Source: Candidatus Methanophagales archaeon (GTDB lineage Archaea > Halobacteriota > Syntropharchaeia > Alkanophagales > Methanospirareceae). Taken from it: a stretch of 17,149 bases of DNA. Shown here piece after piece: positions 2,359 through 17,149 of this stretch. The DNA lies in NCBI GenBank assembly GCA_030621535.1, contig JAUXHM010000005.1, positions 1-17,149 of the forward strand, in the 5' to 3' direction. The stretch's first letter is position 1. Each line of letters begins with the position of its first letter. The notes under the pieces are model-generated. The model saw only the letters and a list, made by a program, of their open reading frames with translations. It was not told where the DNA came from and did no database searches. The translations under genes were made by a program, and so were the position numbers.

Positions 2359-2381
2359 AATTGCAAAATGCTGACTGAAAA

Positions 2382-3126: not shown

Positions 3127-3160
3127 ACTTCCTTCTATTTAATCTGTGTTAGCAATAAAT

Positions 3161-3169
3161 CTTTTTAAA
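3161..3169 (+). promoter_or_regulatory. TATA box for CBS gene 3227
   Basis: CTTTTTAAA, preceded by an A-rich stretch (AGCAATAAAT), lies about 60 nt before ATG 3227. A transcript start near 3190 would leave a leader of about 35 nt. Confidence 0.5.
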
Positions 3170-3226
3170 CGATAGGGGCATAGTGAAGTTGTACAGTTGC
3201 TTCGTTAAGTGAGGGATAAAGGACAA

Positions 3227-3622: not shown

Positions 3623-3627
3623 ACACT

Positions 3628-3744
3628 TTTTCTTTTTGTGAAAAAGAAAACCTGTGCTAAAAGAAAAACTAAAGAAATATTTTTAGTCAAGGTTTTTACC
3701 GAAGGTAAAAAAGTTGTTGGTAAAGCTTTCTTTCCTAAAGAAAG
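3628..3744. terminator. Three successive 3-nt-loop hairpins between convergent CBS genes
   Basis: Three perfect inverted repeats with 3-nt loops lie in line. TTTTCTTTTT-GTG-AAAAAGAAAA is at 3628-3650, TTTTTACC-GAA-GGTAAAAA at 3693-3711, and CTTTCTTT-CCT-AAAGAAAG at 3726-3744. They fill the gap between the stop of the plus-strand CBS gene (3622) and the stop of the minus-strand CBS gene (3747). A bidirectional terminator is the simple reading. Confidence 0.55.
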
Positions 3745-3746
3745 GT

Positions 3747-4139: not shown

Positions 4140-4195
4140 CTTTATTTCTCTCCTCTATATTAAATTTGCTTTTTTCTATATCAAATTAAATACCG

Positions 4196-4206
4196 AAATA
4201 TTTATA
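4196..4206. promoter_or_regulatory. Divergent TATA-rich promoter region
   Basis: AATATTTATAAG lies 38-48 nt before ATG 4244 and 57-67 nt before the minus-strand start at 4139. The spacing suits a plus-strand transcript starting near 4228, with a short leader carrying GGTGAGGAAGA. The same AT-rich spacer may serve the minus-strand CBS gene. Confidence 0.45.
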
Positions 4207-4243
4207 AGATATGAGTTATGTATAAATGAATAGGTGAGGAAGA

Positions 4244-4489
4244 ATGGGGGGAAAATTTATTGCCGCACTGAAATGTTTTATTAAATGCCCGGCGGACACA
4301 ATGAGGCTCATGCTGACTTTAAACCCTCCTTATGATGCCCAAGCGGTAGAAGCGGTAAAGGCGCATTGCCCGGAAGTAGAAGTAGAGGGAGTGGGTTTTT
4401 ATGCCGGGATTTTCCTTGCGCTCGTCTTCCTTGCATTCTGCGTGCTGGCGTATGTAATGTCGCTGATATATGGCGGCGTAACTATATGA
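4244..4489 (+). CDS. Small one-TM protein resembling an antiporter tail
   Basis: This 81-aa protein has an amphipathic N-terminal part (KFIAALKCFIKCPADTMRLM), a short acidic middle (HCPEVEVEG) and one strong C-terminal TM helix (FYAGIFLALVFLAFCVLAYV) ending LIYGGVTI. Its plan (amphipathic 'F-x-x-x-P...R', linker, TM, Y/H-G-x) parallels the C-terminal ~90 residues of the antiporters in this window and the 86-aa protein at 11351. Homology is suggestive only. GTGAGGAAGA precedes the ATG. It has a promoter region of its own, is convergent with the long CBS gene, and lies in the middle of the CBS cluster. A role as a membrane partner is inferred. Confidence 0.65.
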   Translation: MGGKFIAALKCFIKCPADTMRLMLTLNPPYDAQAVEAVKAHCPEVEVEGVGFYAGIFLALVFLAFCVLAYVMSLIYGGVTI

Positions 4490-4511
4490 AAAATCTGTGT
4501 AATCAGGTTTT

Positions 4512-5939
4512 TTAGGAATAGAATTCCCTTACACACTCCGGTTTCCTTCTCAGCAGGTCTTGAATACTTACAATGCCCACGAGCGAGCCATTTTCAACTA
4601 CCGGCACCCTTTTTATGCCTTTCTTCGCTACGAGTTTACACGTTTCGTCTGCGGATACTTCTGGCTTGACGGTTACCAGAGGGGAAGCCATTATCTCCTT
4701 CGCTTTTACTCCGTTTGCCTCCTTATCCGTTAATAGAACCTTCAATGCGATGTCGCGCTCGGTAATAATCCCTGCTGGTTTGCCTTTTGAGGTTATCACT
4801 ACGCTCCCTATCCCCTGCTTGTCCATATCCGCTGCTATTTTAGCGACTGATGCGTCTTCATCTTCTGTGATGACGGGATGTGTCATTATATCCCTTACCT
4901 TTTTCTCCTCTCTTTCAAATTCCCTTCTCTTTGCCCTGAAAAACGAAAAACACGATACTACCAAACAGAGCGCATTTTTACATCTGCTTGCTAAAACGCG
5001 CACTTCTGGATGAGGATAAAATCTTTTCGCACATCCGGGCTTCTTTGTCAATATGTTTCTAACACTTACAATGCCCACGAGCGAGCCATTTTCAACCACC
5101 GGCACCCTTTTTATGCCGCCCTTTGCTACGCACTCGCATGCTTCTTCAACTGGTGCGTCGGGCTCAAGGGTAATCAAAGGGGAAGACATTACTTCTCTTG
5201 ATTTCGTCTCACTTGCTCTTTTATTCCTTAATACCACTTTTGACACGATGTCGCGCTCAGTAATAATTCCTTCGGGTTTATTTTCTGAGGTTATCACTAC
5301 GCTCCCTATCCCCTGTTCTGCCATATCCTTCACTATCTTAGTGACCAAAACGTCTTCATCTTCAGTGATGATTGGGTGCGTCATTATGTCCCGGACTTTC
5401 ATCAAATCAATTCGTTTGTGTGGATATTCCGGACCCGGACCTCTCAGCGGTTCAACTCCCGCTCTCACCCACAGAACGAGTTCCTGAAAAGAAGTCATTC
5501 TCCTATGCCCGGGTTCTGAAAAGTCCTCCTCTGCCGCCAGGTCAAAATCAAGTTTATATCTTCCGGGATGTGGCGGTATAAAATCCAGTATTGCCACTTC
5601 GCCCCGGTGTATTGCCGTGTATCTTCCCAAAAACCGCTTACCCGAATAAGCCGTCTTGAAAAGTGAAGCGAAATCCATAAATGACCTTCTCTCACTGAAC
5701 AAGCACTTCCCCTGGCGGTCCGCGATTGATAACCTGTAATTGTTGAATTGAAGCCCCAAAGAAGAATTATATTCGTACCATTTAATCGTTTCGCTAAACT
5801 GGAATACAAGCCCTATTCTGCACCATTTCTGAAAGCTTGTGATTTCAAAAGAGCTGGATATTCTTATCCTCCCGTTCTTTTTATCGCCTTCAACCCTCAC
5901 CACTTCCCTTTCCAAAGATATTTTTCTCCGCCAGTTCAT
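4512..5939 (-). CDS. Unknown N-terminal domain fused to two tandem CBS pairs
   Basis: Residues 1-179 of this 475-aa protein form a soluble, aromatic-rich, probably beta-strand domain that I do not recognise (features: WCRIGLVFQFSETIKWYEY, PPHPGRYKLDFDLAAEEDF, ELVLWVRAGVEPL). Residues 180-309 are CBS pair 1 (MKVRDIMTHPIITEDEDVLV; GIITERDIVSK; GIVSVRNILTK, where the usual Asp of the second signature is Asn). Residues 310-346 are a linker with a hydrophobic run (ALCLVVSCFSFF). Residues 347-475 are CBS pair 2 (GIITERDIALK, GIVSIQDLLRRK, ending VREFYS). Met180 aligns with the start Met of the neighbouring 130-aa CBS protein, and the linker looks like a translated former intergenic gap. I therefore infer a fusion of three units. 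Only a weak site (TAGGAAAA) precedes the start at 5939. Likely role: adenine-nucleotide-controlled regulator; the target is unknown. Confidence 0.85.
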   Translation of the reverse strand: MNWRRKISLEREVVRVEGDKKNGRIRISSSFEITSFQKWCRIGLVFQFSETIKWYEYNSSLGLQFNNYRLSIADRQGKCLFSERRSFMDFASLFKTAYSGKRFLGRYTAIHRGEVAILDFIPPHPGRYKLDFDLAAEEDFSEPGHRRMTSFQELVLWVRAGVEPLRGPGPEYPHKRIDLMKVRDIMTHPIITEDEDVLVTKIVKDMAEQGIGSVVITSENKPEGIITERDIVSKVVLRNKRASETKSREVMSSPLITLEPDAPVEEACECVAKGGIKRVPVVENGSLVGIVSVRNILTKKPGCAKRFYPHPEVRVLASRCKNALCLVVSCFSFFRAKRREFEREEKKVRDIMTHPVITEDEDASVAKIAADMDKQGIGSVVITSKGKPAGIITERDIALKVLLTDKEANGVKAKEIMASPLVTVKPEVSADETCKLVAKKGIKRVPVVENGSLVGIVSIQDLLRRKPECVREFYS

Positions 5940-5968
5940 AGTTTTTCCTATCTCTTATACTGTTAGTA

Positions 5969-5987
5969 ATAACTCCCTTCTATTTAA
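5969..5987 (-). promoter_or_regulatory. Conserved 19-bp upstream element TTAAATAGAAGGGAGTTAT
   Basis: On the minus strand this element lies 29 nt before the start of the long CBS gene. An 18/19 match (TTAAATAGAAGGAAGTTAT) lies at 3124-3142, upstream of the minus-strand gene 2810-3061. A shorter match (CTAAATAGAAGAAGAGG) lies about 8084-8100, before the minus-strand membrane protein gene. The TTAAATA part could act as a TATA box; the rest may be a regulator site or the edge of an interspersed repeat. Confidence 0.4.
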
Positions 5988-6057
5988 GACGCAGATCAAC
6001 ACGGATTTACGCGGATTTATTTAAATTTAAGTTTTTTAATGTAAATCTGTGTAATCT
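5988..6057. repeat. Interspersed 'ACGCAGAT...ACACGGATTTAC' inverted repeat
   Basis: ACACGGATTTAC (5999-6010) and GTAAATCTGTGT (6041-6052) are inverted copies matching at 11 of 12 positions around an AT-rich centre (TTTATTTAAATTTAAG). Fragments of the same word occur at 3141-3151 (AATCTGTGTTA), 4493-4505 (AATCTGTGTAATC) and 7080-7096 (TGTGTAAATCCGCGCAA). Similar words occur in many unrelated uncultured genomes (from memory). It lies between the ends of two minus-strand genes and has no coding potential. Confidence 0.55.
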
Positions 6058-6063
6058 CGTGGT

Positions 6064-7026
6064 TTAACTTTTACGTGCTGGTATGGTATAATCCTCGTAT
6101 GCCTTTACTAAATGCTTCGTTAATAGTATTGTCGTGCAATAAAACAGCACCAGCATGACATATCTCACACCTCGGAATACAAAATCCCCCGGCTGCGGCA
6201 CGTACCCCCCGTACTCCTCTTCCACCTCGCCCATGATTCTCCCTATTAGCCCATACCACCGCATCCCATAATAAAAAATAGCGTAAACGTTTATCGCGCA
6301 AAGCCCAAGAGCTATTCCCTGGATGGTTCGGGTCAAATCCATCTTCCGTTTCACTTTCACGCTCAATGCCACGAGGTATCCGAAGAGGAACCAGCCGATT
6401 ATGACAAGCGAAATACCCGAGAACGTGCTTTCCCAGAAGGTTACAACGTCGTCAATGGTTATCGCTACTCGCCATAAAATCGCCGCCGCTATGATTATCA
6501 CCAATGTTCGTTCATGCGTAATCACCCTGAACATAGCTTCTTTTATGTTCTTTGTGCGTTCCTTCTTCCTCGGTCTTTCTTTAATCAGTAGTCGGTAATT
6601 CTCATGCATGCCCTTTAGATGTCGCGCCAGGGCAATTGCTATGCAATAATACGCCACGAACAGGACATATCGCACATCGCGGAAGATAAAATCCCGCGCT
6701 ACGGAAACTTCTACACGCAGTAATCCGCCCCATCGCATTCCATAGTAAATCATAATATAAAAGTTCAGCACGAGCACGCTAAAGGCGATACCGCGATAAA
6801 TCCTATTTGATACCGGCCACTCCGTTGGTTTCGCACTCATTGAATACATGTGTGCAAAGACGAGCCAGCCAATTATGAACAGACTTACACCCGAACAGGC
6901 ACTTTCCCATGAGCTTATTTCTGCATCCGCGCTTACAACCGCTCGCCATAAGAACGCTATACCGCCTACTACTATTGGTATCCTCCCATCGGTTAGTACC
7001 CGGAATAAAAAATCCCTCTTGTTCAT
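6064..7026 (-). CDS. Eight-TM membrane protein of two four-TM repeats (unknown family), copy A
   Basis: This 320-aa protein is an internal duplication; each half has four hydrophobic helices. Repeat 1 carries FLFRVLTD, LWR (26-28), WES (40-42), YYGMRW (94-99), RDVRY (116-120) and RHL (135-137). Repeat 2 carries MFRVITH, LWR (184-186), WES (198-200), YYGMRW (252-257), RGVRY (285-289) and KHL (304-306). A charged linker (KERPRKKERTKN) joins them. The conserved Arg, Glu and Tyr near the helix ends suggest a shared buried polar site, but I know no family with this signature and give no function. A paralog lies directly upstream (7111-8067). No ribosome binding site precedes the ATG; a TTTTTAAAA box about 30 nt upstream suggests a leaderless transcript. 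Confidence 0.82.
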   Translation of the reverse strand: MNKRDFLFRVLTDGRIPIVVGGIAFLWRAVVSADAEISSWESACSGVSLFIIGWLVFAHMYSMSAKPTEWPVSNRIYRGIAFSVLVLNFYIMIYYGMRWGGLLRVEVSVARDFIFRDVRYVLFVAYYCIAIALARHLKGMHENYRLLIKERPRKKERTKNIKEAMFRVITHERTLVIIIAAAILWRVAITIDDVVTFWESTFSGISLVIIGWFLFGYLVALSVKVKRKMDLTRTIQGIALGLCAINVYAIFYYGMRWYGLIGRIMGEVEEEYGGYVPQPGDFVFRGVRYVMLVLFYCTTILLTKHLVKAYEDYTIPARKS

Positions 7027-7045
7027 CTAAAGCGCCAGGCATACT

Positions 7046-7062
7046 TTTTTTTTTAAAAAGGA
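7046..7062 (-). promoter_or_regulatory. T/A-rich TATA-like box, probably for a leaderless mRNA
   Basis: On the minus strand CCTTTTTAAAAAAAAAA is centred about 28-30 nt before the ATG at 7026, which is the archaeal TATA-to-start distance. Together with the missing ribosome binding site, this points to transcription starting at or near the start codon. Confidence 0.4.
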
Positions 7063-7110
7063 GATAAGAAAACGGACTTTGTGTAAATCCGCGCAATATA
7101 AATAAAGATA

Positions 7111-8067
7111 CTATTCCTTGTACTCCTTCTCCCCTTTTTTAATCAAGAACTCACACTCTTCTGATGCCCTTTCCAGATATTTAGATAGCACTATTGACGT
7201 GCAAAAAAATAGCGCCAGGGCAAAATATCGTATATCACGGCATATAAAATCCAGTGGCATCAAAGCCTCTTCCGAAGCTGCCATGAATATTAATCTATAC
7301 CACCGCATCCCGTAGTAAACGAGAGCATACATGTTCACAGCGAATAGTGCAAAGGCAAATCCCTGGTATATCTTTGCAACGCTTGGTCGCGTAGTCCTCA
7401 CTGCCAATGAACTTATGTAACCGAAGAGAACCCAACCCAGTATGAAAAGAGCCATACCCGAGCACATACTCTCCCACAGAGCTATTTGTTTGTCGAAACT
7501 TATGACGGCACGCCATAAAAATACCACGCCTAATATCACTATTACCGTCCGTTCATCCGTTAATATCCTGAACATTGATTCCGCTGCGCTCACTTTTCGC
7601 ATCGCAGGCATCTTTTCGGTTACCAGCAAGTAATTGTCGTGCATCTTCTTTAGATGCCCCGTCGCCCATATTATTCCACAATACGCCAGCACTAACGCGG
7701 CGTATCTCACATCCCTGAGAAGAAAATCCCTTGGCACATAAATTTCAGTTTCAGTCATTAATCTATGCCATCTCATCGCATAGTAAACGAGAACGTAAGC
7801 ATTCAAGGCGCTTACGCTAATGGCAATCCCCTGAGCAAGCTTATTCGAAATTATCCAGCTCGTCTCTCGCTTAGACAGCAGATAGAGATAACTGAAGATA
7901 AACCAGCCCAGTACGATAAGAACAACACCTGAGCACACACTTTCCAGAAGCGATATCTCTTTGTCAAGGCTTACGACTGTTCGCCATAAAATCGTCACAA
8001 CCGCTATCACTGCCAGAGTTCGCCAATCCATTATCACCGTTTCGACTGAAATCCTATCGGTGTCCAT
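7111..8067 (-). CDS. Eight-TM membrane protein of two four-TM repeats (unknown family), copy B
   Basis: This 318-aa paralog of the gene at 6064 has the same two-repeat plan. Repeat 1 has LWR (27-29), LES (41-43, Trp replaced by Leu), YYAMRW (95-100), RDVRY (118-122) and GHL (137-139). Repeat 2 starts SMFRILTDERT and has LWR (184-186), WES (198-200), YYGMRW (251-256), RDIRY (277-281) and KYL (296-298). Four helices per repeat place it in the cytoplasmic membrane. The gap to copy A is 84 nt, so the pair arose by tandem duplication after the internal duplication. A GAGGGGAT site lies about 14 nt before the ATG, and a TTTATAAG box on the minus strand (8110-8119) would give a leader of about 20 nt. 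Function unknown; the kinase gene starts divergently next door. Confidence 0.82.
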   Translation of the reverse strand: MDTDRISVETVIMDWRTLAVIAVVTILWRTVVSLDKEISLLESVCSGVVLIVLGWFIFSYLYLLSKRETSWIISNKLAQGIAISVSALNAYVLVYYAMRWHRLMTETEIYVPRDFLLRDVRYAALVLAYCGIIWATGHLKKMHDNYLLVTEKMPAMRKVSAAESMFRILTDERTVIVILGVVFLWRAVISFDKQIALWESMCSGMALFILGWVLFGYISSLAVRTTRPSVAKIYQGFAFALFAVNMYALVYYGMRWYRLIFMAASEEALMPLDFICRDIRYFALALFFCTSIVLSKYLERASEECEFLIKKGEKEYKE

Positions 8068-8109
8068 TTTTATCTGAAAATCCCCTCTTCTTCTATTTAG
8101 AATTTTATT

Positions 8110-8119
8110 CTTATAAATA
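8110..8119 (-). promoter_or_regulatory. TATA box for the 7111-8067 gene
   Basis: ATTTATAAGA on the minus strand lies 43-52 nt upstream of the ATG at 8067. A further strong TATA-like stretch (GTATATAAATAC, 8134-8145) lies in the same divergent spacer and could serve either strand. Confidence 0.45.
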
Positions 8120-8211
8120 TCTGATGGATAAGGGTATATAAATACATTTCGATTTTTATTTCGGCAGAATCAAAATCTTTTTACTCTTTACTCTTCAACG
8201 AACCCCTTGAC

Positions 8212-8221
8212 ATTTTTAAAC
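8212..8221 (+). promoter_or_regulatory. TATA box for the kinase operon
   Basis: ATTTTTAAAC lies about 40 nt before ATG 8257 and 85 nt before ATG 8302. A transcript starting near 8245 would carry the GAGGAGGG and AGGGGG sites ahead of ATG 8302, supporting the downstream start. Confidence 0.45.
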
Positions 8222-8301
8222 GTAAAAAGGTAAAGCATTATCACTAATTAGTCTAAATGTATAGGAATAACGAGAGGATAGAGGAGGGAATAAGGGGGAA
8301 G

Positions 8302-10425
8302 ATGATAAAGGGGTTGAATTATAGATTTTTTATATTGCTTTCTACTGTGTTAGCCTGCACTATCTTAGCTTTTTTTGTCAGTTTTATCAAGAATGAAACA
8401 ATCGTCTATACGCATTTTTTCTATGTCCCTATCCTTTTAGCTGGGGTGTGGTATCGTAAGAAAGCCGTTTATATCGCCCTTTTTCTCAGCTTCGTCTATA
8501 TCCTTGCAACCTATCCTTTGACCCATCTTTCGATAGATGTTTTTGCAAGGAGTGCTATTTTTGTAGCAGTAGCGTATGTTATCGGGCTTGTTAGCGAGAA
8601 GCGAGCTAAAGGAGAGGAGAAGCTAAAAGAAACAAAAGAGTATCTGGATAATATTATTACGAGTTCTGTGGATGTAATTGCTGTTGTGGATATGGAGGGA
8701 ATGGTGCGTTCCTGGAACAAAGCAGCAGAAGACGACATGGGTTATTCTGCAGAGGAGGTAATAGGAACCAGCAACAAAAAATTCTTTGCTGACCCGGAAG
8801 AAGCGGAGAAAATAATGAGAATAGTGCAGAGAGAAGGGGGGCTCAAGAATTATAGAACAACCGTGTTAAATAAGGATAAAAAGCAGGTACACGTCAGCAT
8901 GTCAGCGGCATTGTTAAAGGACAAGGATGGCGTGCCGATAGGCACTGTACGTGTGAGCAGAGATATAACAAAAGAAGTGGGGTTGGAAGAGAAAATAAAA
9001 GAGGAACGTGACAACCTGAATTTGATACTTGAGAGCATGGATGATGGTGTGTACATTGTATCAAAATACTATAAAGTAGAGTTTATGAACAAGGTTTTGA
9101 TTGATGCGTTTGGATACCATGTCGGCGATGTTTGCCATAAGGTGTTTCATAATAGGGATGACCCCTGTCCACAGTGCAAAAATACAGAGGTGATGAAAGG
9201 AAAGACGGTGAGGTGGGAGTGGGACTCTCGCAGGAATAACAAGACTTATGACCTCTTTGAGACACCTTTGAAGAATATTAAGGGCACTATATCAAAATTA
9301 ACGATATTTAGAGATATAAGTGAGCGAAAGCGAATGGAGGATGAATTAAGGGATGCTGAGGAGCGTTACCGGGTAATCTTCGAGCATACACTCACCGCTT
9401 TGTGTGTCATTGAACATGGCGAAGTAGTAACTCTGGCAAACAGAGAATTTGAGACCCTGAGCGGATATTCAAGGGAAGAAATAGAGGGTAAGAAGTGGAT
9501 TGATTTCATCGCTGATGAAGATATGGGTAGGGTTCAGAATTATTGTGAGGAAAGAAGAAAAGGAGAAGCGCCGGCATGCTGTGAATTCAAGTTTACTAGT
9601 TGCAATGGAGAAATTAAGCAGGTGAATGCCTGGATAGAGCCAATCCCTGGGGCAAATAGGTGCATCGCCTCCTTGCTTGACATTACAGAGCTAAAAAGGA
9701 AGGGGGATGAACTGCGTGAGACCTGCGAAAAACTTAAGGAGCTGGACAAGATGAAGCGGGAGTTCCTTAACGTGGCTTATCATGAGATGCGGTCCCCTCT
9801 TGCTCCCATTGTGGGGTATGCAAGTATGTTGGAGCGCTGTGAACTATCGGGCAAGGGGAAGAAATATCTCTATATTATAGAGCAAAGTGCAAGAGAACTT
9901 GAGAAGATGATTAATCGGATGTTAGAACTTGCACGCATTGACAGTAAGAAAATAGAGCTGAGTTTGGAAGGGTTGTATATTCCTGAAGTCGTGGCGGAGG
10001 TGGTTAAGGGCATTGAACCTGAGGCAAAGGAGAAGAAGCAGGTTATCTCCACGGTCGTCCCGGAGGTAAAAATTCAAGCGGATAAGCAGAAGATGGTCGC
10101 TATTTTATATAACTTGATTTCCAATGCAATCAGATATACTCAGGAGGGAGGGAGAATAGACATCATGGTTGAGGATAGAGAGAAGGAGGGGGATATACGT
10201 GTTTGTATTGCAGATACAGGGATTGGCATTCCAGAGGAACATTTGCCAAAGATTTTTGAGCGATTTTATATGGTGGATACGTCTTTGACAAGGAAGTCAG
10301 GTAGTCTTGGGCTGGGCTTATCCATAGTTAAGGAATATGTAAACTTGCATGGCGGGAAAGTATGGGCTACAAGCGAATTTGGGAAGGGTTCAAAATTCTT
10401 CTTTATAATGCCAAAAAGACAATAA
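8302..10425 (+). CDS. Membrane-anchored triple-PAS sensor histidine kinase
   Basis: This 707-aa protein (numbered from ATG 8302) has an N-terminal membrane part of about three to four helices (FFILLSTVLACTILAFF; HFFYVPILLAGVW; ALFLSFVYILAT; AIFVAVAYVIGLV). PAS domains lie at about 108-223, 235-340 and 350-465, followed by HisKA with phospho-acceptor His494 (AYHEMRSPL). The HATPase_c domain has an N box (LISNAIRYT), G1 (IADTGIGIPE), F box (FERFYM) and G2 (LGLGLSIV). It is complete and should autophosphorylate. PAS2 has a Cys cluster, C278-x10-C289-x2-C292 (CHKVFHNRDDPCPQC), of the type that may bind a metal or haem. I chose ATG 8302 for its AAGGGGGAAG and GAGGAGGG sites; in-frame ATG 8257 lacks one. 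The receiver gene follows after 21 nt, so it is the probable partner. Confidence 0.92.
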   Translation: MIKGLNYRFFILLSTVLACTILAFFVSFIKNETIVYTHFFYVPILLAGVWYRKKAVYIALFLSFVYILATYPLTHLSIDVFARSAIFVAVAYVIGLVSEKRAKGEEKLKETKEYLDNIITSSVDVIAVVDMEGMVRSWNKAAEDDMGYSAEEVIGTSNKKFFADPEEAEKIMRIVQREGGLKNYRTTVLNKDKKQVHVSMSAALLKDKDGVPIGTVRVSRDITKEVGLEEKIKEERDNLNLILESMDDGVYIVSKYYKVEFMNKVLIDAFGYHVGDVCHKVFHNRDDPCPQCKNTEVMKGKTVRWEWDSRRNNKTYDLFETPLKNIKGTISKLTIFRDISERKRMEDELRDAEERYRVIFEHTLTALCVIEHGEVVTLANREFETLSGYSREEIEGKKWIDFIADEDMGRVQNYCEERRKGEAPACCEFKFTSCNGEIKQVNAWIEPIPGANRCIASLLDITELKRKGDELRETCEKLKELDKMKREFLNVAYHEMRSPLAPIVGYASMLERCELSGKGKKYLYIIEQSARELEKMINRMLELARIDSKKIELSLEGLYIPEVVAEVVKGIEPEAKEKKQVISTVVPEVKIQADKQKMVAILYNLISNAIRYTQEGGRIDIMVEDREKEGDIRVCIADTGIGIPEEHLPKIFERFYMVDTSLTRKSGSLGLGLSIVKEYVNLHGGKVWATSEFGKGSKFFFIMPKRQ

Positions 10426-10446
10426 TAAAATTTAAGGAGGGAGAAG

Positions 10447-10848
10447 ATGCAGAAGAAGAGGATATTGATTGTGGAAGATGCGGCATACATGCGTGATATG
10501 CTAAGTGAGATGCTGGAGCAGGCGGAGAGAAGCTATGAAGTGGTGGGCTTCGCGGTTAATGGAAAGGAAGCAGTGGAGAAATATAAAGAATTGAAGCCCG
10601 ATCTTGTCACCATGGATCTGGTCATGGAGGTGATGGATGGGATTCAAGCGATAAGGGAGATAAAGAAAGATGACCCAAACGCTTTGATTATCGCAATCAG
10701 CGCATTGGGTACGCCGGAGCAGAAGAAAGCAGCGCTGGATGCAGGAGCAGGTGAATACCTGTGGAAACCGTTCACCATAAAAAATTTATTTGACGCGCTC
10801 GAAAAACTGCTGAGGAAGAGAGAGGATGAGCGAGGAAGTGCTACTTGA
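10447..10848 (+). CDS. Single-domain (CheY-like) response regulator
   Basis: This 133-aa protein is a bare receiver domain: acidic pocket Glu10/Asp11 (LIVEDAAYM), phospho-acceptor Asp57 (LVTMDLVMEVMDG), Ser85 at the Thr/Ser switch (IAISALG) and Lys107 (LWKPF). There is no output domain; the C-terminus is a charged helix (LLRKREDERGSAT). AAGGAGGGAG precedes the ATG. It lies 21 nt after the kinase stop and its last 23 nt overlap the winged-helix gene, so the three form one operon. By inference it accepts phosphate from the upstream kinase and signals by protein contact, possibly to the winged-helix protein. Confidence 0.92.
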   Translation: MQKKRILIVEDAAYMRDMLSEMLEQAERSYEVVGFAVNGKEAVEKYKELKPDLVTMDLVMEVMDGIQAIREIKKDDPNALIIAISALGTPEQKKAALDAGAGEYLWKPFTIKNLFDALEKLLRKREDERGSAT

Positions 10849-11131
10849 AGAGGTTTTGCGTTCTCTCAGAAGAAGCCGAGTGAGGACTGAAATCGTAATG
10901 TATCTCTATAAAATCTATCCCCGGGCTTCGTATCCCGCGGAGATTTCGAGGAACACCGGGATAGACCCCACAAATATCCTTGGAGGGTTGCGAGGGATGG
11001 GCACTAGGTTCGATGAGTCAACTTCTCTTCTCACACAAGGAGTAGTAGAGAAGATAGAGCGTGAAAAAGCGACATACTACCGGCTTTCAGAACGGGGAAA
11101 ATCGTTGATAGAGAGCATACAGGAGACTTAG
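10826..11131 (+). CDS. Winged-helix DNA-binding protein 1
   Basis: This 101-aa protein has an N-terminal helix (EEVLRSLRRSRVRTEIVMYL), a helix-turn-helix (YPAEISRNTGIDPTNILGGL) and a wing with C-terminal helix (GVVEKIEREKATYYRLSERG). It is an archaeal-type winged-helix transcription regulator, probably a dimer. The start lies inside the receiver gene (23-nt overlap) with GAAGAGAGAGG just upstream, so translation is coupled. The second winged-helix protein at 11651 is closely similar in its recognition helix region and wing. Context suggests that it is the separate output of the two-component system. The promoter and dyads at 11242-11301, just downstream, are a likely target. Confidence 0.88.
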   Translation: MSEEVLLEEVLRSLRRSRVRTEIVMYLYKIYPRASYPAEISRNTGIDPTNILGGLRGMGTRFDESTSLLTQGVVEKIEREKATYYRLSERGKSLIESIQET

Positions 11132-11241
11132 TGGCTAATTTCAAATCAATTACGAAATTAAGAATTAGAGGTAATTCATAATAGTCCATTTGTAATTGGC
11201 TCATCATCGCCATCTGTTTTTTATGACATCACCGAAAAAAA

Positions 11242-11259
11242 ACGAAAAGCTTTTATATA
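11242..11259 (+). promoter_or_regulatory. Strong archaeal BRE/TATA promoter for the antiporter-2 operon
   Basis: ACGAAAAGCTTTTATATA combines a purine-rich BRE (CGAAAA) with a TTTATATA box and is the best promoter in the window. Transcription should start near 11280-11285, inside the dyads described next, so a protein bound there would compete with the transcription machinery. Confidence 0.75.
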
Positions 11260-11263
11260 CCTA

Positions 11264-11301
11264 CATATACACATGTATATGCAAGCACATGTGTATGTGC
11301 T
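11264..11301. promoter_or_regulatory. Two adjacent dyads, probable operator
   Basis: CATATACA-CA-TGTATATG (11264-11281) is an 8-bp inverted repeat. AGCACAT-GTGT-ATGTGCT (11284-11301) is a 7-bp inverted repeat. They share the 12-mer CACATGT(A/G)TATG at 11270-11281 and 11286-11297, exactly 16 nt apart with 11/12 identity. They lie directly after the TATA box over the expected transcript start. Genes for winged-helix proteins stand on both sides, so repression or auto-regulation is inferred. An mRNA hairpin is the alternative for the second dyad. Confidence 0.65.
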
Positions 11302-11350
11302 GATAAGGGGAGAAAAAAAGGGATAAAAAGATAGGAGGGAAAAGAAGAAA

Positions 11351-11611
11351 ATGGAAATAGGAATAGATAGAATTTTGGACTCGTGGAGCTGTTTTGGCAG
11401 GAACCCGGGGCTTGCAACTCGGGTAATGTTTGATGAGGCAGGAGCGACTGTGGTGCATTCTAATCCGGTGCGTCACATGCTGGAATTAGAGAAGAGCGGT
11501 TACCTGGAGGATGCCCGAACGTTAGCGATATGGACTGCGATGCTGTATTCAATAGCTTTTGGCGCATCGTATGCGCTCATGGCAATGACGTACGGTGTGT
11601 TTTGGATTTAG
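11351..11611 (+). CDS. Small one-TM protein resembling an antiporter tail
   Basis: This 86-aa protein begins MEIGIDRILDSWSCFGRNPG, then LATRVMFDEAG, a charged stretch (HMLELEKSGYLEDAR) and one long hydrophobic C-terminal helix (LAIWTAMLYSIAFGASYALM) ending TYGVFWI. The FGRNPGLATRVM segment parallels WFSRNPTAASRIM in antiporter 2, and the final YGVFWI parallels HGVLWV. It therefore looks like a free-standing version of the antiporter C-terminal module. It is the first gene after the strong promoter, with GGAGGG 11 nt before the ATG, and is followed by the winged-helix gene (39-nt gap) and antiporter 2. A membrane partner or sensor for the antiporter is inferred. Confidence 0.75.
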   Translation: MEIGIDRILDSWSCFGRNPGLATRVMFDEAGATVVHSNPVRHMLELEKSGYLEDARTLAIWTAMLYSIAFGASYALMAMTYGVFWI

Positions 11612-11650
11612 GTTGGGTAGACAACAAAAAAGAAAGGAGGGATTAAAAAA

Positions 11651-11962
11651 ATGTTTGATAGAAGTAAAAAAGCGGGATTGGGGGATGTATCTCAGTCTCT
11701 TAGAAAGAGCAGGGTACGAAGTGAGATTATGATGTATTTGTACAACAATTATCCAGAGGATTCGCATCCGGCTGAGATTGCTAAGAACACAGGGATAGAC
11801 TCCAAAAATGTCTTTAAAGGACTGAGAGGTACGGGCTGGCTTAATGTAGCGAAATCTCTTCTCAAACAAGGTGTTGTGGAAGAGATAGAGCGTGAAAATG
11901 AGACATACTACCGGCTTTCAGAACGTGGTAAATCGCTGGTAGAGAGCCAGCAGGAAGCCTAA
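11651..11962 (+). CDS. Winged-helix DNA-binding protein 2
   Basis: This 103-aa paralog of the protein at 10826 shares SLRKSRVRSEIMMYLYNNYP, the helix-turn-helix HPAEIAKNTGIDSKNVFKGL and the wing GVVEEIERENETYYRLSERG, ending SLVESQQEA. AAAGGAGGG precedes the ATG. It lies in the operon between the small TM gene and antiporter 2 (26-nt gap to the latter), so it is made with the transporter and could control its own promoter through the dyads at 11264-11301. The two paralogs may compete or form mixed dimers. The DNA-binding role is well supported by the fold pattern; the target is inferred. Confidence 0.88.
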   Translation: MFDRSKKAGLGDVSQSLRKSRVRSEIMMYLYNNYPEDSHPAEIAKNTGIDSKNVFKGLRGTGWLNVAKSLLKQGVVEEIERENETYYRLSERGKSLVESQQEA

Positions 11963-11988
11963 AAAAGAAAGGAGGGATAACAAACAGA

Positions 11989-13818
11989 ATGATAGACATA
12001 GGATGGATCCCCAATGTGCCTCCGGCCATTATTTATATTATAGGGGCCGCCTTACTGCCCCTGCTCGGCACGGGAAAGGCGAGGAAGATATATCTTATCG
12101 TCTTAGCTGCGCTTGGGTTAATCACCGTGGCGTTGATACGACCACAGACGAACTGGGTATTCTCTGTTATGCCGGGATTTGAGCTGACATTCCTGCATGC
12201 GGATTCATTGAGCCTTATAATGGGTTATATATTTGCCCTAATCGGCGCTGCGGCGATAATATACTCATTGGATATAGTAAAGGAGAATGGGGAGCTTGTA
12301 TGTGGCTTGCTGTATTTAGGAAGTGCGCTGGGCGCGGTATTTGCCGGTGACTTCTTCACGCTATATATCTTCTGGGAGATAATGGCGTTCTCTTCGGTCG
12401 GGCTGATATGGTACAGCCGGACAGAGCGGGCGACAAATGCGGGGATGCGATATATCATATTTCACTTGCTTGGAGGCTGTGCCCTTCTTGGGGGAATACT
12501 GATACATTACATGAATACGGGTTCTATCACGATTGGACCCGTAGAATCGGGCATAGGATATTTCCTTCTGCTCATAGGGATAGGAGTAAACACGGCATTC
12601 ATATCTCTTCATTCATGGCTGCCGGATTCGTATCCGAAGGCAACGATAGCCGGTGCGGTATTCATGTGTGTATTTACGACAAAAACCGGTGTGTATGTGC
12701 TTGCGAGAACTTTCCCGGGTGTAGAAGCGGTAGCGTACATGGGCGGTGTGATGTGCCTCTACGGCGTTGCATTCGCACTGATGCAGAACGACGTGCGGAA
12801 ACTCCTTTCTTACCATATTGTGTCACAGGTTGGCTACATGGTAGCGGGGATAGGAATCGGCACATATATAGGCATAAACGGTGGAATCGCGCACGTTTTC
12901 AACCATATCCTGTACAAGGCGCTGCTGTTTATGTGCATGGGTGCAGTGATATATGCGACCGGGAAGAACAACCTCACAGAACTTGGCGGACTGGCGAAGA
13001 AGATGCCAATAACGATGATAACGTGCGTGATAGCAGCTCTTTCCATTTCTGGCATGCCCGGCTTTAATGGATACGTGAGTAAAGGTATGATAGTCCATGC
13101 CGTGGAATTAGAAGGGATGCATATCCTTGCATTTGTTTTAATCCTGGGTTCGGTGGGCACTTTCCTGTCTTTCTTAAAACTCACTTATTTCGTGTTTTTC
13201 AAGCGAAATGATGGAATAAAAGCGAAAGAAGCGCCGCTGCCCATGCTTATCGCAATGAGCGTTACGGCTTCCCTTTGCGTTGTCCTCGGTGTATATCCGG
13301 AACTGCTCTACCGAATACTTCCTTATCCCGGGGTTGCGTTTCACTACCACGCATACGGATTCGCGCATACGATAGGCACGCTGGAGTTATTGATGATGAC
13401 CGCGGTGGGATTTGTCGCGCTGCAATTTGTATTCTCGCCCCATGAGAAAATAACGTATGACATAGACTACCTTTACAGGAAGGCAGGAAGAGGATTTATA
13501 TGGTTCTGCGAGCAGCCGTTAGTGACCGTTGCGAATTTTATTGATAAAAGCTTGCTGAAACTCGCTGATGCAGCTGTATGGTTCAGCAGGAATCCAACGG
13601 CGGCGTCAAGAATAATGGTGGCTATGGTAGGTGCAGTGGTAACGAGACCTTTTTTCAATCCATCGTATGGGCAATACGCGCGTGATTTGGAAGAGCTCAA
13701 GCAGATGTATCCGGGAGAAGTGCCGCGGGTAGCGATAGGAACAGGCGTGCTGTTAGCACTCGTGCTTTTCACGCTCTATTTGATCGTTTATCTAACGCAT
13801 GGAGTGCTGTGGGTATAA
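11989..13818 (+). CDS. MrpD/NuoM-like proton (cation) antiporter subunit, copy 2
   Basis: This 609-aa member of the Proton_antipo_M family has channel residues Glu130 (IFWEIMAF), Lys232 (FTTKTGVYVLAR), the His of LLSYHIVSQVGYM and Lys365 (FNGYVSKGM); AHVFNHILYK is intact. The C-terminal extension has YDIDYLYRKAGRGFIWFCEQ, an amphipathic WFSRNPTAASRIM stretch, YARDLEELKQ and a final TM helix ending HGVLWV. It is clearly closer to copy 3 (14869) than to copy 1 across the core. GGAGGG (11971-11976) precedes the ATG. It is the last gene of the operon starting at the 11242 promoter, followed by a repeat and a hairpin. It should translocate H+ or Na+; the coupling partner is not in this operon, apart perhaps from the small TM protein. 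Confidence 0.94.
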   Translation: MIDIGWIPNVPPAIIYIIGAALLPLLGTGKARKIYLIVLAALGLITVALIRPQTNWVFSVMPGFELTFLHADSLSLIMGYIFALIGAAAIIYSLDIVKENGELVCGLLYLGSALGAVFAGDFFTLYIFWEIMAFSSVGLIWYSRTERATNAGMRYIIFHLLGGCALLGGILIHYMNTGSITIGPVESGIGYFLLLIGIGVNTAFISLHSWLPDSYPKATIAGAVFMCVFTTKTGVYVLARTFPGVEAVAYMGGVMCLYGVAFALMQNDVRKLLSYHIVSQVGYMVAGIGIGTYIGINGGIAHVFNHILYKALLFMCMGAVIYATGKNNLTELGGLAKKMPITMITCVIAALSISGMPGFNGYVSKGMIVHAVELEGMHILAFVLILGSVGTFLSFLKLTYFVFFKRNDGIKAKEAPLPMLIAMSVTASLCVVLGVYPELLYRILPYPGVAFHYHAYGFAHTIGTLELLMMTAVGFVALQFVFSPHEKITYDIDYLYRKAGRGFIWFCEQPLVTVANFIDKSLLKLADAAVWFSRNPTAASRIMVAMVGAVVTRPFFNPSYGQYARDLEELKQMYPGEVPRVAIGTGVLLALVLFTLYLIVYLTHGVLWV

Positions 13819-13822
13819 TCGG

Positions 13823-13850
13823 AGCCAATAGGGAATAGCCAATAGGGAAT
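13823..13850. repeat. Tandem 14-bp repeat AGCCAATAGGGAAT x2
   Basis: Two perfect copies lie at 13823-13836 and 13837-13850, directly after the antiporter-2 stop codon. It is a non-coding word repeat, one of several different ones in the gaps of this window. Confidence 0.8.
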
Positions 13851-13852
13851 GG

Positions 13853-13875
13853 GATTGGAGGGGTCACCTCCAATC
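13853..13875. terminator. Hairpin between antiporter 2 and the minus-strand small gene pair
   Basis: GATTGGAGG-GGTCA-CCTCCAATC is a perfect 9-bp stem with a 5-nt loop. It is followed on the plus strand by a short T-containing stretch (TTCAACATTTTTC), so it can serve as terminator for the plus-strand operon. It lies 12 nt beyond the end of the minus-strand gene at 13887 and could serve both. Confidence 0.6.
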
Positions 13876-13886
13876 TTCAACATTTT

Positions 13887-14102
13887 TCACTCATGTGTAA
13901 TTGATATCTTTTTGTCCTTTATCCTATCATATAAGTATTTGGGAAGCGGAATTTTAACCTCTTCATCAAAAATTAAAAGTTTCGTGTTTAGTGTTCCCTC
14001 TTCAACAAGCTTGAATTTAACATCGCATGATTCAACTTCTACAATCTCTCCCTCCGGCAAACTTTCCATGTCTTCCATTGTTCTTATCTTTATCTTCTTC
14101 AT
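13887..14102 (-). CDS. Small protein paired with a BrnT-like toxin (putative antitoxin)
   Basis: This 71-aa protein starts MKKIKIRTMEDMESLPEGEI, has alternating beta-type stretches (VEVESCDVKFKLVEEG, TKLLIFDEEVKIPLP) and ends YLYDRIKDKKISITHE. It lacks the ribbon-helix-helix pattern of the usual BrnA antitoxin, and I do not recognise its family. It lies 6 nt after the BrnT-like gene on the same strand with a weak GTGAG site, so the two are co-transcribed. Its position suggests the antitoxin or partner of that gene. This rests on context and not on sequence recognition. Confidence 0.65.
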   Translation of the reverse strand: MKKIKIRTMEDMESLPEGEIVEVESCDVKFKLVEEGTLNTKLLIFDEEVKIPLPKYLYDRIKDKKISITHE

Positions 14103-14108
14103 TATATC

Positions 14109-14375
14109 TCACTTTACCTTTTTTGCATATAAACTTTTTTCTGATTTTGTGCTTTCTCTTGCGGTTATAAGATAACATATCCCTCCTTCTTTTGTTTCTA
14201 ATACGATTGTCAAAATTCTTCCACTGTTTGTTTTTCCATAGATCAAAAATCGGTTCTTCTTCCGCTGAATGAAATTGAGCGTATTTAAAACTTCCAAGAC
14301 TTCTTTTCGCCTTATATTATGCCTTACGATATGATATTCCGCTTTTTTCGTGATAATGATGTTTTTGATAAGCAT
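14109..14375 (-). CDS. BrnT/RelE-like toxin
   Basis: This 88-aa protein has a helical first half with His (YHIVRHNIRRKEVLEVLN), a beta-sheet core (FLIYGKTNSGRILTIVLETK; GGICYLITARE) and the terminal ARESTKSEKSLYAKK. The last resembles the 'ARpat..Er..Y' signature of BrnT-like members of the RelE fold, whose known action is ribosome-associated mRNA cleavage. The ATG at 14375 has only a weak GAGAAG site. It precedes the 71-aa putative antitoxin by 6 nt, so the toxin comes first, as in brnT-brnA order. The family call is from motif memory; activity is not provable here. Confidence 0.65.
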   Translation of the reverse strand: MLIKNIIITKKAEYHIVRHNIRRKEVLEVLNTLNFIQRKKNRFLIYGKTNSGRILTIVLETKEGGICYLITARESTKSEKSLYAKKVK

Positions 14376-14433
14376 GTTTTCTACTTCTCATTTGGATTTG
14401 AAGTATGGCAATGCTTTAGATTTTAAAAAATAA

Positions 14434-14472
14434 AAAAGGGGGGACTGATGGATAAGATGTCCAACCCCTTTT
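14434..14472 (-). terminator. Long hairpin with U-run, minus strand
   Basis: AAAAGGGG (14434-14441) pairs with CCCCTTTT (14465-14472), extended by GGAC (14442-14445) with GTCC (14459-14462). Read on the minus strand, the stem is followed by TTATTTTTT, a good terminator. It begins on the stop codon of the minus-strand fragment at 14471-14599. Confidence 0.55.
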
Positions 14473-14599
14473 ACATCTCTCTTGCAAATGCAACCCGGGT
14501 TTCGGTTGTTGAGACATCTCTGCTTTCGTGAAGGAAATCTTCAATCACTTTCGCGTCTTCCGCTTCGTAACTTTTGATTTTGTCGAGAATTAAAAATGG
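14471..14599 (-). pseudogene. C-terminal fragment of an unidentified gene
   Basis: A minus-strand frame of 42 residues includes DKIKSYEAEDAKVIEDFLHE and ends TETRVAFAREM before TAA. It looks coding, with a well-balanced amphipathic helical pattern and a terminator at its end, but it has no ATG. An in-frame TAA lies directly upstream, and a TATA-like stretch starts beside it. I infer a decayed or truncated gene whose front was lost where the antiporter-3 promoter now lies. It could instead be a short gene starting at the GTG of VIEDF. I do not recognise the parent. Confidence 0.4.
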
Positions 14600-14613
14600 T
14601 TATATTTTATATA
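14600..14613 (+). promoter_or_regulatory. TATA box for the antiporter-3 operon
   Basis: TTATATTTTATATA, preceded by an A-rich stretch (AATTAAAAATGG), lies about 60 nt before ATG 14673. A transcript start near 14637 leaves a leader of about 35 nt with GAGGTATGAGGG. Confidence 0.55.
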
Positions 14614-14672
14614 CAACATAGAACTTAATTTAGGATATACACTATCAATAGAGGTATGAGGGCAGAAGAAAG

Positions 14673-14876
14673 ATGGATAAAAAGGTGCTGAAAGGATTAC
14701 TAATAATGCTTGCATGTGCGGTATTAGTGGTATCAGCGGTATCCGTGTTTGTGCTGCATTCTGAGCATTCAGAACTTTTAGAAGGTTTTCTGTACGGAGC
14801 GGTAGGAGTAGGTCTATTCATGATAACGGCTAAGATATTGACCCTAATACAAAAGGAGGGGAAACAGGATGATTGA
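14673..14876 (+). CDS. Small two-TM membrane protein overlapping antiporter 3
   Basis: This 67-aa protein has two helices (LLIMLACAVLVVSAVSVFVL and LYGAVGVGLFMITAKILTLI) around a polar loop (HSEHSELLEGF) and a charged end (QKEGKQDD). The layout matches the 82-aa protein before antiporter 1: two TM helices, His/Glu loop, YG-x-VG start of helix 2, and a K-x-L...QKE tail. Its last 8 nt overlap the start of antiporter 3 (ATGATTGA), and its final codons supply that gene's AAAAGGAGGGG site. Tight translational coupling suggests equal amounts and direct binding. GAGGG lies about 10 nt before the ATG. It is probably an accessory subunit of the antiporter; the enzymatic role is unknown. Confidence 0.8.
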   Translation: MDKKVLKGLLIMLACAVLVVSAVSVFVLHSEHSELLEGFLYGAVGVGLFMITAKILTLIQKEGKQDD

Positions 14877-16758
14877 GTTTGATATACCTCCTTTTCTCAT
14901 TTATTTTTTAGGTGCGGCATTAATTCCGCTACTGGGAAAGGGAAAAGTAAGGAAGATTTCCCTCGTTGCTTTAGCGGTTTTTGGCTTTGTCTGTGTCGCG
15001 CAGATACAACCTCATACCGGCTGGGTATTTCCCATTTTCTCGGGAATTGAGCTGACATTTTTGCATGCGGATAGGCTTAGCCTGATAATGGGGTATATAT
15101 TTGCGTTAGCAGGCGGTGGTGCGATAATATACGCGATTAGCACGGTAAAGGAGTCGGGACAATATGTGTGCGGATTGTTATACATGGGGAGCGCTTTAGG
15201 GGCGGTATTTGCGGGGGATTTCTTCACTTTGTATATCTTCTGGGAGATAATGGCGTTCTCTTCGCTCGGTTTGATCTGGTATGAGGGTTCGAAGAGGGCG
15301 AGAGATTCGGGGATGCGATATATTTTGTTTCACCTGTTTGGTGGTTGTGCTCTTCTTGCCGGGATAATCATTCATTATACGAGCACAGGCGACATAGCGG
15401 TACAATCCATAGAACCGGGCATAGGATACTTTTTACTGCTAATCGGGATAGGCGTAAACGCGGCATTTATACCATTCCATACCTGGCTGCCGGATTCATA
15501 CCCAAAGGCGACAATCGCAGGCACCATTTTCTTATCCATATTCACGACGAAGACGGGTATATACGTGCTTGCAAGGACCTTTTCGGGTGTAGAGGTAATA
15601 GCATATATGGGTGGAGCGATGTGCCTCTACGGCGTTATATTTGCGATATTGCAGAATGACGTGAGAAAGCTCCTTTCTTATCACATTGTGAGCCAGTTGG
15701 GCTATATGGTGGCAGGGGTGGGAATGGCAGGTGTAGGAATGGGTGTTATAGGACTGGATGCCGCCGCCATGGGGACAATGGTGGAAAAATTAGCGTTAGA
15801 TGGTGCTATAGCGCATCTTTTCAACAACCTCTTGTTCAAGACCACGCTGTTTATGTGCATGGGCGCGGTGATATATCGGACAGGGAAAAACAATCTCACC
15901 GATATGGGAGGACTTGCGAGGAAGATGCCAATAACGATGATAACGTGCGTAATAGCAGCTCTTTCTATCTCGGGTATTGTGGGCTTTAATGGGTACATAA
16001 GCAAAGGGATGGTAATTCACGCTGCTGAACTGAAAGAGATGCATATTCTCGCATTTGCTTTGACGCTGGGTTCGGTAGGCACGCTAATATCATTTATAAA
16101 ACTCACCTATTTCGCTTTTTTCGCTAAGAATGAGCACATAGAAGCGAAGGAAGCGCCCTTACCTATGCTCGTTCCGATGTGCATTACCGCTTTCCTCTGT
16201 ATGGCTATCGGGCTATACCCGAAGTTGCTTTACTGGATATTACCCTTCCGAGATGCGGCGTTCCATTACCACGCATTTGCACTAGGGCACACGTTAGGAA
16301 CAGTGGAACTGGTGCTGATGACGGTTTTCCTGTTCTTCATGCTCGGGTATTTTGCACCTCACGAGAAGATAACGTATGACATAGATTACCTGTATAGAAA
16401 GGCAGGTAGAGGATTTATATGGTTCTGTGAGAATCCGTTAGCGCATTTTGCGATTGGATTGGAGAAGGTAGTACTGAGAATTGCGGATTCTTTCGTCACC
16501 TTCGGCAAGAATCCAATAAGAGGAATAAGAATGGTGGTGGACACGATAGGCGTAGCGCTGTTGAAACCTTTTGTTTTTGTTTACAATCGGGTAGTACAGC
16601 CGGTGTACAGGCATTATGAGCGAGACCTGGAAGAAGTAAAGATGCGACCAGCGGAAGAACCCCTGGAGCGAATGAGCATTGGAACCGGTGTGCTGCTGGT
16701 GCTTCTCTTTTTCGCTTTATATCTGATTGCTATGCTTGTGCATGGGTGGCTGGCTTAG
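14869..16758 (+). CDS. MrpD/NuoM-like proton (cation) antiporter subunit, copy 3
   Basis: This 629-aa Proton_antipo_M protein has channel residues Glu126 (IFWEIMAF), Lys228 (FTTKTGIYVLAR), the His of LLSYHIVSQLGYM and Lys379 (FNGYISKGM). Between GYM and the next AH motif it has 34 residues, against 16 in copy 2 and 22 in copy 1. These include AGVGMAGVGM (282-291), from a 15-bp tandem duplication at 15712-15741. In the following motif (AHLFNNLLFK) the second His seen in copies 1 and 2 is Asn. The C-terminal extension repeats YDIDYLYRKAGRGFIWFCE, FGKNPIRGIRM, YERDLEEVKM and a final TM helix ending HGWLA. The start overlaps the two-TM gene. It is convergent with the partial gene at 16922. Confidence 0.94.
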   Translation: MIEFDIPPFLIYFLGAALIPLLGKGKVRKISLVALAVFGFVCVAQIQPHTGWVFPIFSGIELTFLHADRLSLIMGYIFALAGGGAIIYAISTVKESGQYVCGLLYMGSALGAVFAGDFFTLYIFWEIMAFSSLGLIWYEGSKRARDSGMRYILFHLFGGCALLAGIIIHYTSTGDIAVQSIEPGIGYFLLLIGIGVNAAFIPFHTWLPDSYPKATIAGTIFLSIFTTKTGIYVLARTFSGVEVIAYMGGAMCLYGVIFAILQNDVRKLLSYHIVSQLGYMVAGVGMAGVGMGVIGLDAAAMGTMVEKLALDGAIAHLFNNLLFKTTLFMCMGAVIYRTGKNNLTDMGGLARKMPITMITCVIAALSISGIVGFNGYISKGMVIHAAELKEMHILAFALTLGSVGTLISFIKLTYFAFFAKNEHIEAKEAPLPMLVPMCITAFLCMAIGLYPKLLYWILPFRDAAFHYHAFALGHTLGTVELVLMTVFLFFMLGYFAPHEKITYDIDYLYRKAGRGFIWFCENPLAHFAIGLEKVVLRIADSFVTFGKNPIRGIRMVVDTIGVALLKPFVFVYNRVVQPVYRHYERDLEEVKMRPAEEPLERMSIGTGVLLVLLFFALYLIAMLVHGWLA

Positions 16759-16772
16759 CATTGTGAGTACAA

Positions 16773-16813
16773 TTAGCGGTTTAGCTATTTAGCGGCTTAG
16801 AGGTTTAGCTATT
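16773..16813. repeat. Direct repeat TTAG(C/A)GGTTTAGCTATT x2
   Basis: Copies at 16773-16789 and 16797-16813 match at 16 of 17 bases, with a 24-bp period. They lie just after the antiporter-3 stop codon and are non-coding. Confidence 0.75.
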
Positions 16814-16856
16814 CGAGCAATCGCTAAAAAACCAGCCTTCTAATCTGCTTGAAAGC

Positions 16857-16919
16857 CCTGACACCTAACACCTAACACCTAACACCTAACACCTAACACC
16901 TGGATGTAACCTGACACCT
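16857..16919. repeat. Heptamer microsatellite ACACCTA x5.9 between CCTGACACCT copies
   Basis: ACACCTA is repeated five times plus ACACCT (16861-16901). The array is bounded by CCTGACACCT at 16857-16866 and again at 16910-16919, with GGATGTAA between the array and the second copy. It fills the gap between two convergent antiporter-type genes. It has no spacers (so it is not a CRISPR) and no coding frame. Confidence 0.9.
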
Positions 16920-16921
16920 GT

Positions 16922-17149
16922 TTAAATTACATTCCCGATTGCTACTTCTACAAGCTTATAGAAATACATAGAGATTACGTTCAGCCCCAGAATAAAATCC
17001 AGGAGGAACAAAACCGAGAAAATCGCGGTTATTGTTAATGGAATGAGCATGAACAAAGGTGCTTCTTTTACTTCTACCTCTTTTGCCTCCCCTTCTGGCT
17101 GCTTGAAGAATGCCGTATGTATGATAGGGAAGAAATAAACGACATCCAG
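16922..17149 (-). CDS. C-terminal part of an antiporter-like (NuoL/M/N-type) subunit
   Basis: The frame is open from the right window edge to TAA at 16922-16924, encoding 75 residues. It includes a hydrophobic start (VVYFFPIIHTAFF), a charged loop (KQPEGEAKEVEVKEAP), then LFMLIPLTITAIFSVLFLL and a last helix ending VAIGNVI. The pattern 'F.K.P....E..E.P..MLIPL.ITA' is that of the late TM region of proton-antiporter subunits, where a charged loop precedes the last helices. The tail resembles the partial gene at 1-99. It lacks the long YRK..FCE extension of the three full antiporters, so it belongs to another subfamily. It is convergent with antiporter 3. Confidence 0.75.
   Translation of the reverse strand: MDVVYFFPIIHTAFFKQPEGEAKEVEVKEAPLFMLIPLTITAIFSVLFLLDFILGLNVISMYFYKLVEVAIGNVI

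Follow-up and report, generated by a model that had tools for sequence, protein, structure and literature searches.

The window analysed here, i.e., the whole stretch of 17,149 nucleotides from a Candidatus Methanophagales archaeon (GenBank assembly GCA_030621535.1, contig JAUXHM010000005.1, positions 1 to 17,149, forward strand), comes from a genome (G000) that is 61% complete and carries a two-component system beside an antiporter-like operon. From 5' to 3', all on the plus strand, lie the genes for a histidine kinase, a receiver-only protein and a small winged-helix protein (WH1), followed by a promoter with two dyads and the genes for a small transmembrane (TM) protein, a second winged-helix protein (WH2) and an MrpD-like membrane protein. 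Every element of this layout, as described in the first-pass annotation of this DNA, was confirmed by the open reading frames (ORFs), Pfam matches and the sequence itself. The start of the kinase was misplaced, since the frame opens at 8257 and the annotated 8302 is an in-frame internal ATG.

The N-terminus of the kinase (8257..10425, 722 aa) is hydrophobic, and Pfam finds three PAS stretches as well as HisKA and HATPase domains in the protein, with the phospho-acceptor histidine of the H-box at position 509. The receiver (10447..10848, 133 aa; Pfam Response_reg E 4.1e-27) completes the hallmarks of a two-component pair with an acidic pair, the phospho-acceptor Asp57, a threonine or serine and a lysine, and it carries no output domain above the Pfam cut-off. 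E10, D11, D57 and K107 are invariant in 33/33 receivers of the conserved trios described below, with S or T at position 85. Receiver and DNA-binding domain are separate ORFs, unlike the one-chain regulator in which a receiver (REC) is joined to a helix-turn-helix (HTH) domain. The MrpD-like protein at the other end of the locus (11989..13818, 609 aa; Proton_antipo_M E 1.7e-45) scores 664 bits against a cut-off of 564 for the NCBIfam equivalog model PRK12668 (Na+/H+ antiporter subunit D) and is presumed to be an antiporter subunit, its transport activity being a prediction from this homology. Several homologues of the small TM protein (11351..11611, 86 aa) are also matched by the MrpD query.

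WH1 (10826..11131, 101 aa; 92.1 bits, E 1.9e-26) and its paralog WH2 (11651..11962, 103 aa; 67.9 bits, E 7.1e-19) both lie far above the curated cut-off of 22 bits for PF07381, and by this profile match both are members of the EarA family, the family of the archaellum activator EarA; PF07381 formerly went by the name DUF1495. An identical WH1 occurs in ANME-1 cluster archaeon GoMg1 (ANME-1, anaerobic methanotrophic archaea of group 1), its nearest relative, and of the titles of 36 named loci with WH1 relatives, 20 refer to Methanophagales or ANME-1, 11 to Methanosarcinales and five to something else; the window is accordingly taken to be ANME-1. The recognition helix of WH1, PTNILGGLRGMGTRF, resembles ASNVLGCLKGMGNRY of an archaellum-linked EarA in genome G046, and the winged-helix pattern suggests that WH1 would read DNA through this helix; that of WH2 has changed relative to WH1. 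A Foldseek search with the WH1 model gave no match at E<=0.001, the best being AspA (E 8.7e-3) together with MarR proteins, and a search of solved structures by sequence returned nothing below E 0.12.

The promoter that follows WH1 consists of a transcription factor B recognition element (BRE, 11243-11249) and a TATA box (11250-11259), both assigned by eye (11243..11259), directly followed by dyad 1 (11260..11285), in which 10/13 positions pair, and by dyad 2 (11285..11300), an imperfect repeat, GCACATGTGTATGTGC, read by eye. Dyad 1 contains TACATA at 11262-11267 and the overlapping ACCTACAT at 11259-11266, and the boxes in the dyads agree with the EarA words given in PMC10665913, TACATA and A(C/G)(C/G)TACA(T/C). 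These EarA-type boxes sit after the TATA box, not upstream of the BRE. Many relatives share this promoter, which reads ACCGAAAAGCTTTTATATA, then CCTACAYATA...TATATGTAGG, then GCACATGTGTATGTGC or a variant. The BRE/TATA arrangement is the same in 28 aligned promoters, chosen by their BRE word; since these were picked by GAAAAGC[AT]T plus at least five short words after it, the eight of 11 invariant columns and the 25/28 promoters with TACATA/TATGTA are wholly or partly a product of construction. In a palindrome test that shares this word-based selection, 13/28 promoters scored above 95% of shuffles.

The first-pass annotation had treated kinase, receiver and winged-helix gene as a linked trio, and this linkage is conserved in relatives. 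EarA was matched in 40/51 genomes of the window's family; in 33/40 of these EarA-positive ANME-1 genomes, spanning 12/14 genera of the family, a receiver lies directly before EarA or is fused to it (32 adjacent, one fused). The kinase precedes the receiver in 32/33 trio genomes, the exception being G008, where the contig ends soon after. Gaps between the genes of the 32 unfused trios range from -70 to +42 nt. The 23-nt overlap of receiver and WH1 is not general (G004 has the same by sequence and four other relatives inspected have one base more); an overlap of 4 nt was called in 14/32 unfused trios. A further three EarA-positive genomes (G003, G012, G019) show no readable receiver, and here the contig starts 0.3-2.1 kb before the EarA gene. 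The two genomes of sister family f2 have EarA without a neighbouring receiver.

Receiver and EarA also occur in one chain. In G014 a receiver, an acidic linker and an EarA domain form a single 293-aa frame lying after a kinase and before MrpD. Among 120 listed matches to this fusion, of 234 found, 12 proteins combine PF00072 and PF07381 with the receiver first; one of these 12 is named Methanophagales, and the EarA part has drifted in all of them. A frame of the same type with a shortened EarA part follows a second kinase in G138 (L227, G138:C88, 5453-7960), where the split trio is present too. In the receiver tree the G014 fusion is placed inside the split clade (96/94); as the grouping of all 13 fusions was not rejected (approximately unbiased test, p 0.196), we do not claim two separate fusion events. 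As domain-fusion evidence, these proteins suggest a functional pairing of receiver and EarA, short of proof of contact.

Within the window the EarA words are not enriched (TACATA, nine found against 7.9 expected; ASSTACAY, two against 2.3), so support for the operator rests on its conservation in other genera. We took the window's 41-base operator without BRE/TATA, counted at least 24 identical bases upstream as a match, and examined first genes picked by protein homology outside the window's genus. A match was found upstream of 16/23 such first genes, compared with 2/188 other ORFs, a background that may include non-genes, and 0/460 shuffled regions. With the window and its genus included, the Thermococcales EarA word, A(C/G)(C/G)TACA(T/C), occurred within 200 nt upstream of 12/29 first genes and of 3/206 other ORFs, which again may include non-genes. 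A set of 14 other promoters held TACATA in six cases and the Thermococcales word in none, although this comparison set probably includes some of the sites themselves.

A sequence-only promoter model gave 33 hits at E<=1e-9 in 28/74 genomes, 28 of the hits being training sites recovered by construction. The genomes with hits were 28/40 EarA-positive ANME-1, 0/11 EarA-negative ANME-1 and 0/23 others. The five non-training hits (G017, G249, G258 and twice in G022) all lie at trio or small-TM/MrpD loci, while weaker hits, among the matches listed, mostly cover the BRE/TATA half only. In G018, G021 and G258 the operator precedes the small-TM/MrpD operon on a contig other than that of the trio; in G022, the 16.7-kb trio contig lacks an MrpD match, yet three near-identical operator copies follow the trio. 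These dissociations make operator, EarA and MrpD seem linked beyond mere adjacency. Of the G022 copies (L181, G022:C169; 1713-1790, 1862-1935 and 5089-5162), all inside a stretch of 3.5 kb, a tandem pair precedes one gene and the remaining copy another; both genes encode apparently exported proteins.

We consider it likely that the locus encodes a split response regulator, in which the signal would pass from kinase to receiver to an EarA-type WH1 that binds the dyads, probably as a repressor, and controls the MrpD operon. The membrane kinase would hand phosphate to Asp57 of the receiver-only protein, and the receiver would act by contact with WH1, the product of the overlapping gene, as synteny and the fusions suggest. 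Motif match and helix conservation suggest that WH1 would recognise the TACATA / ACCTACAY inverted-repeat boxes immediately downstream of the TATA box in the promoter of the small-TM/WH2/MrpD operon. Since these boxes cover the expected start site, WH1 is most likely a repressor, and a position after the TATA box agrees with the summary of archaeal repressors in PMC5512572. In this scheme WH1 would repress, perhaps joined by WH2 in a feedback role, with the receiver setting the level; WH2, lying inside the regulated operon, would form a mixed dimer or provide feedback. Of all these steps, the direction in which WH1 acts is the least certain. For the narrower proposal, that an EarA protein has taken on the role of detached output in a two-component system, is translationally coupled to its receiver and represses an ANME-1 antiporter-like operon across its start site, we hold the case to be evenly balanced.

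The first-pass annotation had proposed that the winged-helix protein is the detached output of the receiver and controls the antiporter operon together with its co-transcribed paralog. This is borne out in part: the role of detached output gains indirect support from the adjacency or fusion of the receiver in 33/40 genomes and from the receiver-EarA fusions, and the conserved operator at the MrpD operon does the same for control of that operon by way of the dyads. An equal part for WH2 in binding the dyads is doubtful because of its changed recognition helix. What that annotation had missed is the assignment of both proteins to the EarA family, the presence of EarA-type boxes in the dyads and their position downstream of the TATA box as a pointer to repression.

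Several observations weigh against this interpretation. None of the 28 promoters has TACATA or TATGTA in the 68 nt before the BRE, unlike known EarA promoters; the operator was not found at 7/23 homology-chosen first genes; and two or more TACATA/TATGTA words lie upstream of only 7/29 first genes compared with 5/206 background ORFs. The trio is also not universal, as in G016 kinase and receiver lie ~47 kb from EarA on the same contig, and in G024 and G032 EarA has no neighbouring receiver within the 5.3 and 2.9 kb that are readable. In 10/33 trios there is no MrpD within 5 kb; the contig ends earlier in seven of these but not in G018, G021 and G022. In G001 (85% complete) a TTACATATATGTAA dyad stands before MrpD1 and no separate EarA gene was found, the EarA match there being only the EarA-like tail of a 933-aa protein. 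This protein has a signal-like N-terminus (L065, G001:C30, 905-3706). The 11 EarA-negative genomes gave no clean separation of operator and EarA: G006, G010, G011, G028 and G272 hold an MrpD2-like gene (in G006 and G011 judged by the preceding small gene), in G029, G189, G240 and G263 nothing matched MrpD at E<=1e-60, and only MrpD matches of 44-49% identity turned up in G005 and G313. In G006, G010 and G011 the MrpD1 operon was not found, and the region upstream of the MrpD2-like gene resembles that of MrpD2 in the window, without the dyad. The structure predictions were of low confidence as well. The WH1 model (mean pLDDT, the predicted local distance difference test score, of 61.2) shows helices together with two strands, in keeping with a winged-helix fold, and the model of the G014 fusion (mean pLDDT 56.5, predicted template modelling score 0.41) is of no use for the receiver-WH interface.

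Among the alternatives, WH1 with the phosphorylated receiver may be an activator despite its downstream sites, as EarA is in Methanococcus, and known EarA proteins do activate (PMC5512572, PMC10665913). We regard this as unlikely, given that the sites cover the expected start and do not precede the BRE, and that the BRE/TATA half recurs at many other positions in ANME-1 (weaker hits, among the matches listed) and so looks like a strong general promoter needing no help. It is a rather slim prospect that kinase and receiver are mere co-inherited neighbours and that the EarA-like proteins act on the MrpD operon, via the dyads, independently of them. The persistence of the operator in G024, whose EarA has no neighbouring receiver, speaks for such independence, and physical contact between receiver and WH1 is a prediction; the tight spacing of the 32 unfused trios and the joining of receiver and EarA in G014 and in 12 protein clusters (among 120 listed) speak against it.

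The archaellum was considered as a target. Archaellin matches are present in the window's own genome and absent from 7/11 near-complete (>=90%) EarA-positive ANME-1 genomes, and in the 14 EarA-positive ANME-1 genomes that have them the archaellins lie on contigs other than that of EarA. We inspected by eye the 14 archaellin upstream regions, one of which had too little sequence; the 13 readable ones contained no paired EarA boxes at the promoter, and a single word in four. In G046, which served as positive control, EarA lies ~4 kb from the archaellins and ACCTACAC stands just before the archaellin TATA-like box. It is highly improbable that WH1 and WH2 are simply the usual EarA of the archaellum and lie here by chance, with the receiver acting elsewhere: this view would agree with their PF07381 membership, with the archaellins of the genome itself and with the NCBI name of some relatives (archaellum operon transcriptional activator EarA family protein), but archaellins are often not found or lie on other contigs, their promoters lack paired boxes and the conserved operator sits at the MrpD operon. 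Archaellum control by WH1/WH2 was accordingly set aside as unlikely. Upstream of ANME-1 archaellin genes (L135, L139, L143), an AT-rich element like AATTATTTCAATTATTTGCTAAAATAATTGCA was seen by eye ahead of the TATA box and is perhaps the site of another regulator.

The split regulator proposed here shares PF07381 and the TACATA / A(C/G)(C/G)TACA(T/C) boxes with EarA of Methanococcus maripaludis and Pyrococcus furiosus (PMC5512572, PMC10665913), but its boxes lie after the TATA box, theirs upstream of the BRE, and it has a linked kinase and receiver and an MrpD operon in place of the archaellum. Bare receivers make up ~40% of archaeal response regulators. According to Galperin et al. (2018, PMC5847659), HTH-bearing regulators are rare in archaea, and receiver and HTH genes are often neighbours, with an interaction of their products still to be demonstrated. 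The same source describes three comparable systems. FilI/FilR1/FilR2 of Methanosaeta harundinacea likewise has an archaeal kinase, a receiver-only regulator and a winged HTH (wHTH) output, but wHTH, DUF1724 and receiver share one protein and the output family is another. LtrK/LtrR, also an archaeal two-component transcription regulator, has a fused HTH-REC architecture, whereas the genes in the window are separate and the output is of EarA type. Thaumarchaeal REC-only genes beside ArsR-like HTH genes likewise pair a stand-alone receiver with an adjoining DNA-binding gene, but they are divergently transcribed, belong to another HTH family and their interaction is left open. The main text of that article does not contain the terms PF07381 or DUF1495, and neither antiporter nor histidine kinase nor MrpD occurs in Chadwick et al. 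(2022, PMC9012536). A search of the open-access PMC literature by title and abstract start found nothing joining EarA to a receiver or describing this ANME-1 system. With the fusion, the conserved trio and the conserved operator, the receiver-HTH interaction could now be put to the test using three small proteins and a single DNA of 60 bp. If correct, the proposal would provide a worked example of how archaeal stand-alone receivers reach DNA, extend the role of EarA beyond motility and open a way into the regulation of energy-converting membrane proteins in methane-oxidising ANME-1.

The remainder of the window holds further genes. Three MrpD paralogs lie within 17 kb (473-2341, 11989-13818 and 14869-16758) with differing upstream regions, the outer two being 46% and 64% identical to the middle copy. 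By eye, the small TM proteins at 11351-11611 and 2382-2648 resemble a detached C-terminal end of MrpD; the latter matches the MrpD query with 37% identity (E 2e-9), and many relatives have similar small genes near MrpD genes. At 13887-14375 on the minus strand lies a candidate gene for a BrnT-like toxin, accompanied by a small partner (27.6 bits, under the Pfam cut-off of 34.5). A run of CBS-domain proteins spans 3209-5939, including a minus-strand ORF (4512-5939) with four CBS stretches that looks like merged genes. Two tandem membrane-protein paralogs on the minus strand (6064-7026 and 7111-8067) have no Pfam match; each is seemingly an internal duplication, and look-alikes also occur in the corresponding neighbourhood of L048.

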